This document shows, piece by piece, positions 40,643 through 46,574 of a stretch of DNA of 46,574 nt. The DNA is from a bacterium. GTDB taxonomy: Bacteria > Patescibacteriota > Microgenomatia > Daviesbacterales > UBA10151. Below the pieces are notes generated by a model. That model made no database searches. It worked only from the letters and a program-made list of their open reading frames with translations, and was not told the origin of the DNA. The translations under genes and the position numbers were made by a program. Positions within the stretch are counted from its first letter, which is position 1; each line of letters begins with the position of its first letter. Location: positions 1 through 46,574 of the forward strand of contig JAJYIE010000007.1 of NCBI GenBank assembly GCA_021790255.1, read 5' to 3'.

Positions 40643-40990
40643 CCTTGAAGTAGAGAATTAAGCCTTCGCCTCCATTCATCCTCGAATATAATCTCAAACG
40701 GATACTTTTATTCTTAAAAGCTAATTTTAGTTCTTCCCATTTTTTCTCGGCAACCATAGTGTTGCAGATATTAAAGACTGCTTTCTTATAGGCTGTATCT
40801 TCGTTTTTAAGATGTAAACCCTTTGCTTCGGCAATAAATACTCTTCATACTCAGTCCCTTTTGTGTATCAGCTTCAGTAAAGATAAAATCAGGATAGATT
40901 TTTTGCTTCCTCCAGCCCTGAATAGCATAATCTCTTCTTGGAATATTCCTATACCAGAAAAAGACTGTTATAGCAGGCCAATCGTACTAT
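40639..40990 (-). pseudogene. C-terminal remnant of type III restriction/helicase-type nuclease
   Basis: On the minus strand three frames must be joined: VFFWYRNIPRRDYAIQGW with KIYPDFIF, then TEYEE, then VFIAEAKGLHLKNEDTAYKK, and finally FEIIFEDEWRRRLNSLLQG ending in the TGA that overlaps the receiver gene. The PDF and EAKG pair is the PD-(D/E)XK nuclease signature, and the WYRN, GW, KGxHLxxxDTxYKK text resembles the C-terminus of type III restriction (Res) subunits. At least three frameshifts separate the parts and no helicase domain is upstream, so it is a dead fragment unless the sequence has errors. Confidence 0.6.
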
Positions 40991-41153
40991 TTTAATCCTC
41001 AAAATCCCGTTTGGGGTGGCTGGATAGACGCAGTTCGAACCCAGCTTCAGGAATTTGTGCCTCTTTATATAATACCAAACTACGGTGATAAATACGGAGA
41101 AGAGTATAACCAAATTTAGACAAAATATTATTTTAAGCCTAATGATTATTAAC

Positions 41154-41179: not shown

Positions 41180-41626
41180 ATGTTTAAGTATTATTTTAAT
41201 AAAAGGCCAGTAGTCGAAAACTCACAAGTAAATAATGTGAGTGTATTTGTTAGGCATAATTATTTACTTATAAAAGAAAAACTAAAAGAAAAGGGAGAAG
41301 ACCTTGATCTTAATAAAGAGGAAGATGTGAAACTCTTTGTTAAGATAGTAGAGCAAGGCGTAACAGTAAACCTCAAACAGGAGAAAAATGGAGAAGTATC
41401 TACCACAGAGTACATGAATCCAATGAAACTTACTTACACTAAGTCAAATCTCAACAAGGGCTTTATCTTTTGGTTTGTATGCAACCTTTGCGGCAGGAAG
41501 GTCAGGTATTTATACTTTCCACCAAACTCTGAAGTAATGGCCTGCAGAAGATGCCACCGTTTAGCTTACAAAAAACAAAATGAGAATGATTCCAAGATAT
41601 TGAGAAAATTAATGAGGGGACTGTAA
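41180..41626 (+). CDS. C-terminal zinc-ribbon protein
   Basis: 148 residues. A charged N-terminal part with an LKEKGEDLDLNKEEDV stretch is followed by a zinc ribbon with Cys101-x2-Cys104 (FVCNLCGRKVRYLYFPP) and Cys122-x2-Cys125 (ACRRCHRLAYKKQ). The CGRxVRxLYxPP and CRRCHxLxYxxQ pattern recurs in small proteins of phages and plasmids, probably nucleic-acid binders. The gene converges on the cysteine-rich membrane protein with 5 bases between. Confidence 0.7.
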   Translation: MFKYYFNKRPVVENSQVNNVSVFVRHNYLLIKEKLKEKGEDLDLNKEEDVKLFVKIVEQGVTVNLKQEKNGEVSTTEYMNPMKLTYTKSNLNKGFIFWFVCNLCGRKVRYLYFPPNSEVMACRRCHRLAYKKQNENDSKILRKLMRGL

Positions 41627-41631
41627 TATTG

Positions 41632-42348
41632 TTATTCCGTTTTCTTTGTATTATTTGTTATTTTACTAATCAACCAGCCGGCCAAAGGGATTCCCATTAT
41701 GAGCAAAATGGCTATCCATCCTGAATTTGGTTGTTCCGTCTGAGTAAAAGTAGGTGTTGGTGTAGTGGTTGGTAAAGGGGCAGTCCAAGGGGGTACATCT
41801 ACTTCCCAGTAAATTACATTTGACCAAACATGGTTAATGCCAACCTTCATGTCCATATACCATGTCCCAGGTTCAACATTATAAAAAGTAAAGGAATTAG
41901 TCATCGTGTCGGTTAAAGGTCCAGGATCACCCCCAGGATTTTTGTGTAAGGATAAGCTAAAACCAGTATTCGTTACATTGGTCCAAGATGTATGCACAGT
42001 GTATGTTTCTCCATCTGGATTAGGATCAAATGAAAAACTGGCGTTTATTTTTGGAGCCTGTGGGGTTTGGGGAACATACACTGGAGGGTAATAACCTCCT
42101 CCGTAACATTCAGGATAGTATGGGGCACAAGTAGATGAAAGCGGGGTTCCATCACAACAACCACATCCACAAACGCCCCCATGCCAAGAGCAACAACCTG
42201 ATCTTGCAAATACAGGACTATAAAGAAGGAAGGTTGTTAGAAGAAGTATCTCGAATGCAACCCCACTGAGTACTCCGTAATGTAAAAGATTTTTGCTTAT
42301 ATTTTTTCTATGAATATCATTTTTGTTCACAACTAATTTTAGTTGCAC
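41632..42348 (-). CDS. Surface protein with Cys-rich GCCSWHGGVCGC module
   Basis: 238 residues. An N-terminal helix (residues 27-47) leads to an exported stretch with eight Cys: GCCSWHGGVCGCGCCDGTPL, TCAPYYPEC. A Gly/Tyr/Pro hinge and a beta-sandwich part (FDPNPDGETYTVHTSWTNVT, fibronectin-like) follow, then a Thr/Pro stalk and a C-terminal helix (WIAILLIMGIPLAGWLIS) with basic tail. The Cys/His/Trp module resembles a short extracellular motif seen in scattered hypothetical proteins. It overlaps the preceding Cys-rich gene by 10 bases, so both are co-transcribed. Confidence 0.65.
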   Translation of the reverse strand: MQLKLVVNKNDIHRKNISKNLLHYGVLSGVAFEILLLTTFLLYSPVFARSGCCSWHGGVCGCGCCDGTPLSSTCAPYYPECYGGGYYPPVYVPQTPQAPKINASFSFDPNPDGETYTVHTSWTNVTNTGFSLSLHKNPGGDPGPLTDTMTNSFTFYNVEPGTWYMDMKVGINHVWSNVIYWEVDVPPWTAPLPTTTPTPTFTQTEQPNSGWIAILLIMGIPLAGWLISKITNNTKKTE

Positions 42349-43199
42349 AAGTTCTCAATCTGAGAGTCTAGATCATTTTGCTCTGCGGAAACCACACTAC
42401 ATGCTTGCGTTTGATCGGATGCGGGACATTTAGCAATACAGTTACCATAGTCATTTGTGGCTTGGTTATTGCAGACTTCGTACTCACTCACACTCACGGA
42501 TGGATTGGCAGGATTGGGACAGGAACTCAGCTCGTTAGATTCACTATTTTTACAAGTAGTGTAGCAGCTATTAGTATTCTGAAAATTAGAGATACAATTA
42601 TTATAATCTGATTGCCACTGGCTCTTTTTACTCTCTATGGTTGAGTTAATACTTTGAACTGCTCCTACATTTTGGGGAGGGCAATAGAGAACATAACCAA
42701 AGGATGATAGAAAAACTGGAACTTTACTGGGTGTATTGCCAGAGGAAGGGTTTGAAACTCCTGAAGTAGATGGATTAGACTGGCTGTTTTTATAATAACA
42801 GTCCCAATCTCCCTGAGTCATGTCATATTTCTTTCCATCAATAGTAGAAACTTTTGTCAAAATCTCATTTTCATAAACCTTAATAGTCTTATTGGTACAA
42901 TATTCACGGTAATCAACTATTGGTCCTGTTCTCGAGCCATCATGAGTAATTGCTACTTGGGTATTTTGTACTTGCTGGTAAGCCCTAGGGGATGGTTGGG
43001 AATAGGGAGTGGGGGTTGGAGTTTTATCAAAAGCTTGCATTTCCGAGAGTACCTGCCGTGATTTCTCTACTGAAGGTTGGTTTTGAAATTGAGTTGTCCT
43101 AGTAAATTCAGTATTTTTTGTTACCACTCCACCAACCACTACAGATGTAAAAAGAGTAAATAAGACAGCGACAATATGTTTGGACAAAAAGGCAAGCAT
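42339..43199 (-). CDS. Cysteine-rich exported hypothetical protein
   Basis: 286 residues. An N-terminal helix (IVAVLFTLFTSVVVGGVV) is a signal or anchor. A Thr/Pro/Ser linker (residues 55-80) precedes an extracellular part with twelve Cys, many in the last 90 residues (NNCISN, NSCYTTCKN, LSSCPNP, YEVCNN, GNCIAKCP, QACSVV, ENLCN). The spacing suggests several disulphides. No known domain is recognised. It is the first gene of a two-gene unit with the surface protein at 41632-42348. A role in attachment or adhesion is inferred from exported, disulphide-rich, stalk-like architecture. Confidence 0.65.
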   Translation of the reverse strand: MLAFLSKHIVAVLFTLFTSVVVGGVVTKNTEFTRTTQFQNQPSVEKSRQVLSEMQAFDKTPTPTPYSQPSPRAYQQVQNTQVAITHDGSRTGPIVDYREYCTNKTIKVYENEILTKVSTIDGKKYDMTQGDWDCYYKNSQSNPSTSGVSNPSSGNTPSKVPVFLSSFGYVLYCPPQNVGAVQSINSTIESKKSQWQSDYNNCISNFQNTNSCYTTCKNSESNELSSCPNPANPSVSVSEYEVCNNQATNDYGNCIAKCPASDQTQACSVVSAEQNDLDSQIENLCN

Positions 43200-43330
43200 T
43201 GATTTAAATCTTAATCCCTATCCTCATATCTGTTTTGGCAAAATAATAGTCTATATCCTTATATTCCACAATATACTACTATGAATCTTGAAATGCTAGT
43301 TATTGTCTGTAGAGCTATTGTCTTCATTTA

Positions 43331-43347
43331 GCTACCCTTTTGGTAGT
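43331..43347 (+). promoter_or_regulatory. Hairpin abutting the XRE start codon
   Basis: CTACC at 43332-43336 pairs with GGTAG at 43342-43346 across a 5-base loop, extended by a G-T pair; the ATG at 43348 follows at once. It could hide the start from ribosomes or be a repressor half-site dyad. Confidence 0.35.
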
Positions 43348-43560
43348 ATGAAGGCTACACCTACTAGAAAACAACTCGGTAAGAAATTAAGAGAATTAAG
43401 AAAAAAGTCAAATTTATCCCAAGAGGAATTAGGATTCAGAGCAGGAATACACAGAACTTATATTGGAGCTATTGAACGTGGTGAACAAAATATTTCCGTT
43501 GATAATATTCATAAACTGGCCAAAGCATTAAAGGTTTCGGTAAGCGAACTTTTTAAATAA
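43348..43560 (+). CDS. XRE-family helix-turn-helix regulator
   Basis: 70 residues; the in-frame start at 43303 is longer by 15 residues of low similarity. The whole protein is one HTH_3 domain: KLRELRKKSNLSQEELGFRAG, then the recognition helix HRTYIGAIERGEQ, then VDNIHKLAKALKVSVSELF. Small XRE proteins of this size control restriction-modification or prophage/ICE operons. Its gene is divergent from the Cys-rich pair and upstream of the element's hypothetical and ATPase genes, so it may control both directions. Confidence 0.88.
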   Translation: MKATPTRKQLGKKLRELRKKSNLSQEELGFRAGIHRTYIGAIERGEQNISVDNIHKLAKALKVSVSELFK

Positions 43561-43664: not shown

Positions 43665-44399
43665 ATGAAAATAAAGATTGTGACCGAACACCCAAACTTG
43701 AAAAATATCCCAGGGACTTTTACAGAGGATGAACTTAAGTATATAAAAATCCTTGAAGAGGACGAAAATTTAGAAAGAGATTTGAGGTCTGCTAGGGAAA
43801 GATGTAATTTACCGCCTGAGGGGTGCAATATAGATAAGCCGATTTCTAAATACAACAGACAAGAAGTATTTAACAAAATTGATTGGAATCAGCTTATTTA
43901 TAACTCGTACCGCTTTAGCTTAATGTTCGGCTTGCCGACACCATTACCAGAGTATTGGCGGCAGTTCTTTTCAAATCTTATTTTATTCAATATCGCCCTG
44001 CCAATGGATAAATCGCAGTATCTTCCGGTTGAAATCAAAGCTAATGAGAAAGAAGTGACCATTATTATAAGAGAAAAGACTTCAAAACGAGCGCTAAAAA
44101 AATACATTGACGATTCTGATACATTAGATCATTTGCTAACTACTTTACCCGTAACTCCCACAATTGGTATATCTTTGAAGGGTCTAGGAATAAAGAAACG
44201 AATAATGGAATTAAAGGAGGTAGGGAAGACTGACCGGGAAATAGGAGAGATACTCTCTGAAGAGTATGAGGATTTACCTTTCAATCCAGATTACGAGATT
44301 ATAGCGGTTGAACGGACACGCTATAAAAACTGTTTAGATAGGCTCCTGAGTTCAAGAAGAACATTACTTGATGCTATTGGAAAAAGTATGCTCAGGTGA
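43665..44399 (+). CDS. Hypothetical protein of the mobile element
   Basis: 244 residues, soluble and charged. I recognise no domain. Residues 28-60 contain DENLERDLRSARERC and a Cys pair (ERCNLPPEGCNID). The C-terminal third is predicted helical with KKRIMELKEVGKTDREIGEILSEEY, which could be a helix-turn-helix of the resolvase/Hin type (GKTDREIGEIL). If so the protein might bind DNA at the element end. There is no close Shine-Dalgarno; TAGAGT lies 10 bases before the ATG. Confidence 0.55.
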   Translation: MKIKIVTEHPNLKNIPGTFTEDELKYIKILEEDENLERDLRSARERCNLPPEGCNIDKPISKYNRQEVFNKIDWNQLIYNSYRFSLMFGLPTPLPEYWRQFFSNLILFNIALPMDKSQYLPVEIKANEKEVTIIIREKTSKRALKKYIDDSDTLDHLLTTLPVTPTIGISLKGLGIKKRIMELKEVGKTDREIGEILSEEYEDLPFNPDYEIIAVERTRYKNCLDRLLSSRRTLLDAIGKSMLR

Positions 44400-44519: not shown

Positions 44520-44789
44520 ATGTATTCGAATAAAGATTTCCGTTACTTTCGTCTTGCCAACTTTTATACTGCTGCCTTTTTGTTTGCAAAAGGCCTTGAG
44601 CTTGTAAACATAGACCGAACCGACCCAAAACACTCCCAGTTCGTTTTTAAAGATTGCCCAGAAAGAGAGTTACTGGTGCGTAGGTTCAATTTTGCCCCGG
44701 AAGATTCTCCGGAAGTACTTATTGATGTCCGCAAATTCGTAATGGCAATCAAAATGCTCAAGGACAAGCTTTATCAAGGAGGAATATGA
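44520..44789 (+). CDS. DUF5659-type small protein
   Basis: 89 residues from ATG 44520; the longer in-frame start at 44496 has no signal. The pattern FRYFRLANFYTAAFLFAKGLELV, FVFKDCPERELLVRRF and VDVRKFVMAIKMLKDKL-like text (IDVRKFVMAIKMLKDKLY) fits DUF5659, a family found in phage- and ICE-like loci of CPR and Firmicutes. It overlaps the ATPase by 4 bases and is the first gene of that operon. Its role in the element is unknown. Confidence 0.7.
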   Translation: MYSNKDFRYFRLANFYTAAFLFAKGLELVNIDRTDPKHSQFVFKDCPERELLVRRFNFAPEDSPEVLIDVRKFVMAIKMLKDKLYQGGI

Positions 44790-46312
44790 CAGGCGAAGAG
44801 TACAAGGAGTTTGATGAACGGTTTAACCGTGAGCAGGAGGAGAAGTCACAAAAAAGGTTAGCTGAACTTGATGCTGGATTTCCTTTACAGGAAAGAATAT
44901 TACGGTTAGAGCAGGCAAGGACAGAAGAGAAATTAGCAAAAGAAAAAGCTGAGCTGGAAGCATTTGAAGCAGAAGAGCCTTTTGTTGATACCTCCCAATT
45001 CAAACCGCTGGCGACGGGGGAATTAACCGAAACCCTAGGTTTAACCATTAAAAGGGATGAATTAAATAAACTGGTAACCTTTCTGGCTCAACTTTCAGCC
45101 TATACAGAAAGCTGTCAGCTAAACGTATCCTTCAATGCCCCAAGTTCCAGTGGAAAATCTTTTATTCCTTTGGAGATTTCCTATTTGTTTCCTGAAAAAG
45201 ATGTAATTAAGCTGGGGGGAGCTTCCCCAACAGCCTTTTTCCACGACCAAGGTGTTTATGACAAAGAGACCAATACCATTAGAGTTGACCTGGCCAGGAA
45301 AATCATCATCTTTTTAGATCAGCCTAACGGTTTATTATTAGAGAAACTTAGATCTTTTTTATCCCATGATGAAAAAGAGATCCATATCAAAATCACCGAT
45401 AAAAATAAAGGTGGTGGCAATAGGACTAAAAATGTAATTTTAATTGGCTTTCCAGTTGTTATTTTCTGTACTGCTGGGTTAAACCTTGATGAACAAGAAG
45501 CAACTAGATTTTTACTGTTATCCCCTGAGGTAAATCAGGAAAAACTAAGGGAAGCAATTCAAGAGAAAATTAAAAAAGAAGCAGACAGTTTAAGTTATAA
45601 GAATTGGCTAGAATCAGATCCGGATAGGCGGTTATTAAAAGATAGGATACTCGCCATCAGGCAGGCAGGGGTTGCCTCAATTAAGATTTCTAACCCAGAG
45701 CTAGTTACAAAGTTATTTTTTGAAAAGATTAAAACCCCTAAACCGAGACACCAAAGGGATATTGGTAGGATTTTAAGCTTGATTAAGGTATTTGCATTAG
45801 TCAACTTGTGGTTTAGGGAGAAAAACGGTACTACCCTTCTAGCCAACGAAGAGGATATTGCCGAAGCGTTCAAAATTTGGGATATTCTTGCCGAAAGCCA
45901 GGAGTTAAACTTACCACCCTATGTTCTTAATCTTTACAAAGAGGTAATTTTACCGGCATTTTTAGAGAAGAATAACGGAGCCGTTGAAGGTCTTATCGGA
46001 CTGACAAAACAAAATATTGTCCAGAAACATTTTGAAGTATACGGAAGATTTATCCCGGACTGGATGTTGAGGCAGCAGATTATACCTTTGTTGGAAACTG
46101 CCGGATTAATTACCCAAGAGACTGACCCGGATGACAAAAGACGGACATTAATTTATCCCACTAACCAGCTCAATATATCTCAAAAGGTAAACTATATAGA
46201 GAAGGATGGTGGGATAGAGGCGGGAAAGTCAATTGACCAGCTAACCGAAGATGAACAATCAGAGCTTGGCAAATCTATTTTTGGGGAAGAAACTAAATGG
46301 GCTGAGGAATAG
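44786..46312 (+). CDS. Mobile-element P-loop ATPase (primase/helicase-like)
   Basis: 508 residues. Residues 5-65 are a highly charged coiled coil. The ATPase core has Walker A NAPSSSGKS at residues 117-125 and Walker B KIIIFLDQPN at 172-181, then KLRSFLSHDEKEIHIKITDK and a FPVVIFCTAGL segment as in the helicase domain of plasmid/ICE replication proteins with RSxAGKS-type P-loops. The C-terminal half looks winged-helix-like (QQIIPLLETAGLITQETDPDD). A perfect AAGGAGG lies 6 bases before the ATG. It probably drives replication or maintenance of the excised element. Confidence 0.72.
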   Translation: MTGEEYKEFDERFNREQEEKSQKRLAELDAGFPLQERILRLEQARTEEKLAKEKAELEAFEAEEPFVDTSQFKPLATGELTETLGLTIKRDELNKLVTFLAQLSAYTESCQLNVSFNAPSSSGKSFIPLEISYLFPEKDVIKLGGASPTAFFHDQGVYDKETNTIRVDLARKIIIFLDQPNGLLLEKLRSFLSHDEKEIHIKITDKNKGGGNRTKNVILIGFPVVIFCTAGLNLDEQEATRFLLLSPEVNQEKLREAIQEKIKKEADSLSYKNWLESDPDRRLLKDRILAIRQAGVASIKISNPELVTKLFFEKIKTPKPRHQRDIGRILSLIKVFALVNLWFREKNGTTLLANEEDIAEAFKIWDILAESQELNLPPYVLNLYKEVILPAFLEKNNGAVEGLIGLTKQNIVQKHFEVYGRFIPDWMLRQQIIPLLETAGLITQETDPDDKRRTLIYPTNQLNISQKVNYIEKDGGIEAGKSIDQLTEDEQSELGKSIFGEETKWAEE

Positions 46313-46314
46313 GT

Positions 46315-46503
46315 ATGAATATAGGACAGACGGCTTTAGAGGAGTTTAAACAGATATATTTAAATCATTATGGTATCTTGTTAACAGACCAACAAGATTT
46401 AGAACTGGGAATAAGGTTAGTAGAACTTTTTAAGGTGATAGCCAGACCGATACCGGAAGTTGACAGCAAAAAGGAAAAGATAAACAATGACAACAATGAG
46501 TGA
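46315..46503 (+). CDS. Small conserved protein before serine recombinase
   Basis: 62 residues. ALEEFKQIYLNHYGILLTDQQDLELGIRLVELFKVI resembles a short helical family often encoded immediately before serine recombinases in CPR elements (pattern FKxIYxxxxGIxLxDxxxxxxxxxLxxLF). It begins 2 bases after the ATPase stop and overlaps the recombinase start by 8 bases. Function unknown. Confidence 0.65.
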   Translation: MNIGQTALEEFKQIYLNHYGILLTDQQDLELGIRLVELFKVIARPIPEVDSKKEKINNDNNE

Positions 46504-46574
46504 AAAATACATCTTTTATAAAAGAAAATCTATAGATTCAGAAGATAAACAGATTTTAAGTTTGGATTCCCAAG
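46496..46574 (+). CDS. Serine site-specific recombinase, N-terminus (partial)
   Basis: Only the first 26 residues from ATG 46496 are in the window (an in-frame ATG at 46487 is possible). KYIFYKRKSIDSEDKQILSL resembles the catalytic N-terminus of large serine recombinases (YxRKSxxxEDxQxxSLxxQ), where the Ser in RKS is the nucleophile. It runs off the right edge, so length and C-terminal zinc domain cannot be seen. Large serine recombinases integrate and excise elements, so this is the likely integrase of the region. Confidence 0.75.
   Translation, partial: MSEKYIFYKRKSIDSEDKQILSLDSQ

Follow-up and report, generated by a model that had tools for sequence, protein, structure and literature searches.

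A candidate integrative element of about 7.1 kb at the tRNA-His gene of an ultra-small Patescibacteriota bacterium

Four closely packed genes at a contig end

We analysed a window of 46,574 nt, which is the whole of contig C5 in a metagenome-style assembly (45 contigs) of an ultra-small bacterium. An initial annotation had described four genes at its end, encoding a DUF5659 protein, a P-loop ATPase with a coiled coil, a 62-aa protein (p62) and a serine recombinase, as what seemed to be a minimal self-mobilising unit. The four genes are real, lie where they had been placed and overlap or almost touch: the ATPase start overlaps the end of DUF5659 by 4 nt, p62 begins 2 nt past the ATPase end, and the recombinase, starting at 46487 (or 46496), overlaps p62. 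Since the window is the entire contig, the recombinase is cut at 46574. These genes and the further features of the element are as follows.

40954..41018, no strand: left attachment site, a perfect 65-bp direct repeat whose other copy is C21 1519-1583 (identity 100% across all 65 bp, E = 2e-32)
41180..41626, + strand: zinc-ribbon-like protein, 148 aa, a recurrent element gene (CxxC motifs; no Pfam family)
41632..42348, - strand: Cys-rich secreted or membrane-anchored cargo protein, 238 aa (ORF with hydrophobic segments; no family)
42339..43199, - strand: Cys-rich secreted cargo protein, 286 aa (ORF; 48%-identical homologue in L028; no family)
43303..43560, + strand: Cro/CI-type HTH regulator (HTH_3, E = 6.7e-19)
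43665..44399, + strand: 244-aa protein upstream of the cassette (ORF; no Pfam, NCBIfam or PHROGs family)
44520..44789, + strand: DUF5659 small protein, 89 aa (PF18903, E = 1.1e-10, above the Pfam cut-off; near 37 of 74 ATPase loci)
44786..46312, + strand: AAA+ ATPase, 508 aa, primase-associated and replication helicase-like, with a C-terminal winged-helix-like region (motifs, MCM-like fold matches, Toprim fusion or CHC2 neighbour in homologues)
46315..46503, + strand: p62, an LSR-linked small helical protein (family members in 76 of the 280 relatives; precedes 49 of 59 LSRs of one clade)
46487..46574, + strand: predicted large serine recombinase (LSR), first 29 codons with the RKS motif of the catalytic serine (remainder in C21 1-1588)

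A second contig completes the recombinase and defines the element ends

With a full recombinase as query, the same genome yielded contig C21, whose first codons continue the truncated gene in frame; 13 of the 14 nt at which the contig ends overlap are identical (window 46561-46574, C21 1-14). The joined protein matches an LSR model with E = 2.5e-207 and aligns without gaps at the junction with full-length relatives. A truncation beyond the window, which the initial annotation had named as counting against its proposal, was not found, as the joined gene is complete at 553 aa. From its predicted domain order, a Resolvase N-terminal domain followed by a Recombinase domain (PF00239, E = 1.7e-11, and PF07508, E = 2.8e-5; C21 part), the enzyme appears to be a large serine recombinase.

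The recombinase stop lies inside a tRNA-His gene (C21 1577-1651, minus strand), and the C21 copy of the repeat (1519-1583) covers the last 7 nt of this tRNA together with the recombinase 3' end. With the 65-bp repeat at both ends, the C5-C21 link is independently supported and the element measures about 7.1 kb; the join is based on the 14-nt overlap with one mismatch and on this shared att repeat. The element begins at window position 40954, runs through the contig end and takes in about 1.57 kb of C21; it holds at least nine genes. We therefore rejected the minimal four-gene (2-kb) unit, because the att repeats enclose at least five further genes. Among these, the zinc-ribbon-like gene is 82% identical at the nucleotide level over 478 nt to a copy on contig C3, and homologues occur in L028, L031 and L032. 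Searches of the element gave no convincing iterons or origin repeat, no RNA families and no excess of promoter-like sites over shuffles. The contig break falls inside the recombinase gene at a G/T difference (window 46561-46574, C21 1-14), which suggests strain variation in the element.

Serine integrases have a 2-bp core. Thirteen other tRNA-linked loci yielded only short, weak direct-repeat matches, with C45 as the sole exception, and we rejected long direct repeats as a general mark of such elements; their general lack is expected because these are serine integrases. As 65 bp exceeds the 2-bp core and the other loci match weakly, the repeat described here may be the scar of repeated or tandem insertion. 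On C45, at tRNA-Pro, the LSR 3' end is repeated (L018 1058-1212 and 5705-5859; 91% over 155 bp, 4.6 kb apart) in a tandem-like arrangement, with an ABC transporter between the repeats and a frameshifted LSR.

The tRNA-His site in relatives and further copies in the same genome

The initial annotation had also named a lack of excision evidence in every relative as counting against its proposal, and this was not what the relatives showed. The tRNA-His site is occupied in one genome (G000), carries a recombinase remnant in another (G005, locus L196) and has no recombinase in G007 and others; these relatives are represented by one genome per species, so that the LSR-free site comes from another species. 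Together with the 65-bp repeat and the tRNA-His end, the occupied, remnant and LSR-free sites mark site-specific integration.

A second element lies on contig C3 of the same genome, with an ATPase 67% identical to that of the window, a p62-like protein and a recombinase running into tRNA-Gln. Its gene order (small ORF, ATPase, p62-like, recombinase) is that of the window, and with its recurrence in distant genomes the order proposed initially proves non-random. The two recombinases share only 23% identity, whereas the ATPases share 67%, which indicates that the integration module was exchanged and the replication module kept.

Three further recombinase genes of this genome adjoin tRNA-Leu, tRNA-Asn and tRNA-Pro. 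Frameshifts in other LSRs of the genome (C41, C45), LSR remnants in relatives and the polymorphism at the contig break would all be expected of a decayed remnant fixed in the chromosome. Such a remnant is nevertheless quite unlikely: no cassette ORF is broken, the recombinase has its full length, the att repeats show 100% identity and the C3 copy is undamaged as well.

The ATPase resembles a primase-associated replication motor

The ATPase has no Pfam family. It carries a Walker A motif (APSSSGKS), FLDQP (Walker B) and an ATRF arginine, and APSS-GK, FLDQP and TRF-type residues are invariant across nine homologues; we infer that the conserved TRF-type arginine is an arginine finger. Many homologues have a primase domain, either fused to them or next to them, which the window copy lacks. 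In L031 the homologue is fused to a Toprim domain, and in L030 it overlaps a gene for a CHC2 zinc finger.

The AlphaFold model (mean pLDDT 73.6) has two long N-terminal helices, consistent with the coiled coil noted initially, and matches MCM and other AAA+ motors with E values around 1e-7 at a low whole-chain TM-score (0.38-0.42); it also resembles viral primase-helicases. We read the ATPase as the motor of a primase-helicase that lost, or never had, its primase half. It looks like a primase-linked AAA+ replication protein, not a recombination accessory. As the window copy has no primase domain, autonomous replication is not assured.

The cassette recurs in other bacterial phyla and in archaea

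We detected the ATPase in 8 of the 280 genomes searched, a count that includes the window's own genome, and its distribution among relatives is patchy. Two-sequence profile scans of the genome_contigs and viral_contigs collections returned nothing because of poor peptide patterns; a nine-sequence profile succeeded, recovering 73 loci from genome_contigs. The hosts include many CPR lineages, Omnitrophota, Melainabacteria, Planctomycetota, Alphaproteobacteria and archaea. One IMG/VR contig holds a distant ATPase with no LSR nearby; this viral contig and the 73 loci make up a set of 74, in which an LSR lies near 56, DUF5659 near 37 and p62 near 33, and a primase is fused in roughly 30. Beyond the window, the cassette DUF5659/p62/(primase-)AAA+/LSR thus recurs in CPR, other bacterial phyla and archaea; the four genes first noted form a mobile cassette conserved within and beyond CPR.

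Combinations other than this cassette were also observed. At L033 (7454-9862), the genes after the ATPase encode a ribbon-helix-helix-like protein and a tyrosine recombinase; the type of integrase is swapped at this locus. Six loci in archaeal MAGs (L267, L268, L271, L274, L275 and L277) have ATPase homologues with no LSR, DUF5659 or p62 nearby, and two of them have a tyrosine recombinase.

The cargo beside relatives' cassettes is varied, with methyltransferases and RM- or RT-type defence genes among the neighbours, some of which may belong to the host as most element ends are unmapped. A rival reading is a phage satellite (P4/PICI/PLE-like), which would combine an integrase, a regulator and a primase-helicase and be packaged by a helper phage. 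We consider this rather unlikely for the window element. Its functional set is the same as that of P4-type satellites, and its compact size, regulator and tRNA target, the defence-type cargo of relatives and two of 118 neighbour proteins matching a terminase small subunit PHROG speak for it; yet the ATPase had no match in 50,697 phage records, no helper phage is known, and Pfam and PHROGs revealed no gene for capsid remodelling or packaging in the window element, several of whose genes have no family. In place of a P4-like tyrosine integrase, the element carries a serine recombinase.

p62 accompanies one clade of large serine recombinases

The small proteins are, as the initial annotation stated, without a described role. 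p62 has no Pfam, NCBIfam or PHROGs family and no sequence match in the PDB; its model is a helical hairpin (pLDDT 82) with no fold match in the PDB. The p62 family is found in 76 of 280 genomes. Within one LSR clade, whose 59 members were picked by LSR sequence alone regardless of p62, it lies upstream on the same strand in 49, and in 26 of these 49 within 200 bp. At the genome level, p62 and this clade are associated with an odds ratio of 30 (p = 1e-19, indicative only because species are not independent). On the LSR tree, the p62 label needs 9 changes compared with 26 in shuffles, a biased figure, as loci were partly chosen by p62. In a sample drawn by PF07508, p62 lies upstream of only 3 of 57 LSRs, which rules it out as a universal LSR partner.

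As a hypothesis, the most economical role for p62 is that of a directionality factor or recombinase cofactor. Whether alone or with DUF5659, p62 may possibly act in this way, a suggestion that we offer tentatively and at less than even odds.

Recombinase genes run into the 3' ends of tRNA genes

Integration by serine recombinases into tRNA genes has been called rare, with phiRSM1 in tRNA-Ser and mycobacterial AICEs in tRNA-Leu as examples (PMC3218068). We found a convergent tRNA 3' end no more than 200 bp from the LSR stop in 33 of 62 LSRs, which were sampled by PF07508 alone without regard to tRNAs, and a same-strand tRNA in none. At cassette loci, a convergent tRNA 3' end adjoins the LSR 3' end in 36 of 49, again with none on the same strand, and tRNA-His is the commonest target. 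Counting all sets together, 88 of 91 tRNA-associated LSR genes end within the tRNA or past it, which implies that the target supplies the final codons of the recombinase. In two relatives (L028 9654-12321 and L029 3537-6324), a cassette LSR of another clade overlaps ychF in place of a tRNA gene.

For the window element, the LSR reading frame of the circular form is predicted to be about 32 residues longer than that of the chromosomal form (window 40954-41018, C21 1519-1588). The LSR gene would lack a stop codon ahead of the crossover, and the target tRNA would supply its final codons together with the stop. If this is true, the LSR C-terminus differs between circle and chromosome. A more far-reaching proposal is that these loci form an undescribed, widespread class of tRNA-targeting serine-integrase elements of CPR bacteria and other phyla, in which p62 (with DUF5659) is a compact directionality factor and integration rewrites the integrase C-terminus as a possible latch against re-excision; we regard this proposal as speculative and, as a whole, unlikely.

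A probable self-integrating element without recognised transfer genes

The best reading of the locus is a self-integrating, self-replicating element of about 7.1 kb without recognised transfer genes, to which we assign a probability of roughly 0.8. Its own LSR would integrate and excise it at the tRNA-His 3' end, and the AAA+ helicase, of a CHC2/Toprim primase-associated family, would let the excised circle replicate, while the HTH repressor, DUF5659 and p62 may regulate or assist. Because insertion leaves the tRNA gene whole, the tRNA stays functional.

Pfam and PHROGs gave no match to a relaxase or to T4SS/FtsK-type transfer genes in the element genes scanned. The earlier label "self-mobilising" is not supported, as no cell-to-cell transfer gene was recognised in the element; to move between cells, it probably depends on a helper or takes the route of DNA uptake. 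Borrowing a conjugation machine, as an integrative and mobilizable element (IME) does, would suit an integrase and a replication gene in the absence of transfer genes, and several IMEs use serine recombinases (PMC5704250). We nonetheless judge an IME very unlikely, with no relaxase in the annotated element genes or in the 25 most frequent families of the 118 neighbour proteins. The element also does not appear to be a prophage, which would carry virion structural genes: five element proteins scanned had no significant PHROGs match to such genes, and there was no Pfam match in the element.

The mobile elements of CPR bacteria have been poorly described so far, and the element presented here is a defined one with mapped ends. 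A search of the open-access literature found nothing matching the cassette, and naming it provides a handle for finding kin elements. The link of p62 to one LSR clade makes the directionality-factor role directly testable. With serine integrases in this lineage mostly using tRNA 3' ends, a target type called rare (PMC3218068), many natural integrase/att pairs become available.

Comparison with known systems

The P4 alpha protein combines primase and helicase functions and ends in a winged helix that binds the origin. Fused ATPase homologues share with P4 alpha-type primase-helicases the order of zinc finger/Toprim primase, AAA+-type motor and C-terminal winged-helix-like region. In contrast to P4 alpha, the ATPase has no SF3 family match, its window copy is without the primase half, and it pairs with a serine instead of a tyrosine integrase. 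The ATPase is also distantly related to CHC2 zinc-finger proteins of Leptospira plasmids (25-27% identity across half of the ATPase), too distantly for them to be one family.

Actinobacterial AICEs and serine-recombinase IMEs are likewise small integrated elements with a recombinase, a replication gene and specific sites (PMC3218068, PMC5704250), whereas the element described here has no recognised FtsK/Tra-type translocase, relaxase or T4SS gene. With known large serine recombinases and serine integrases, the LSRs analysed here share the Resolvase and Recombinase domains, the catalytic-serine motif and a gene position at the element end by the att site; they differ in mostly targeting tRNA 3' ends, with a reading frame that runs into the tRNA (88 of 91).
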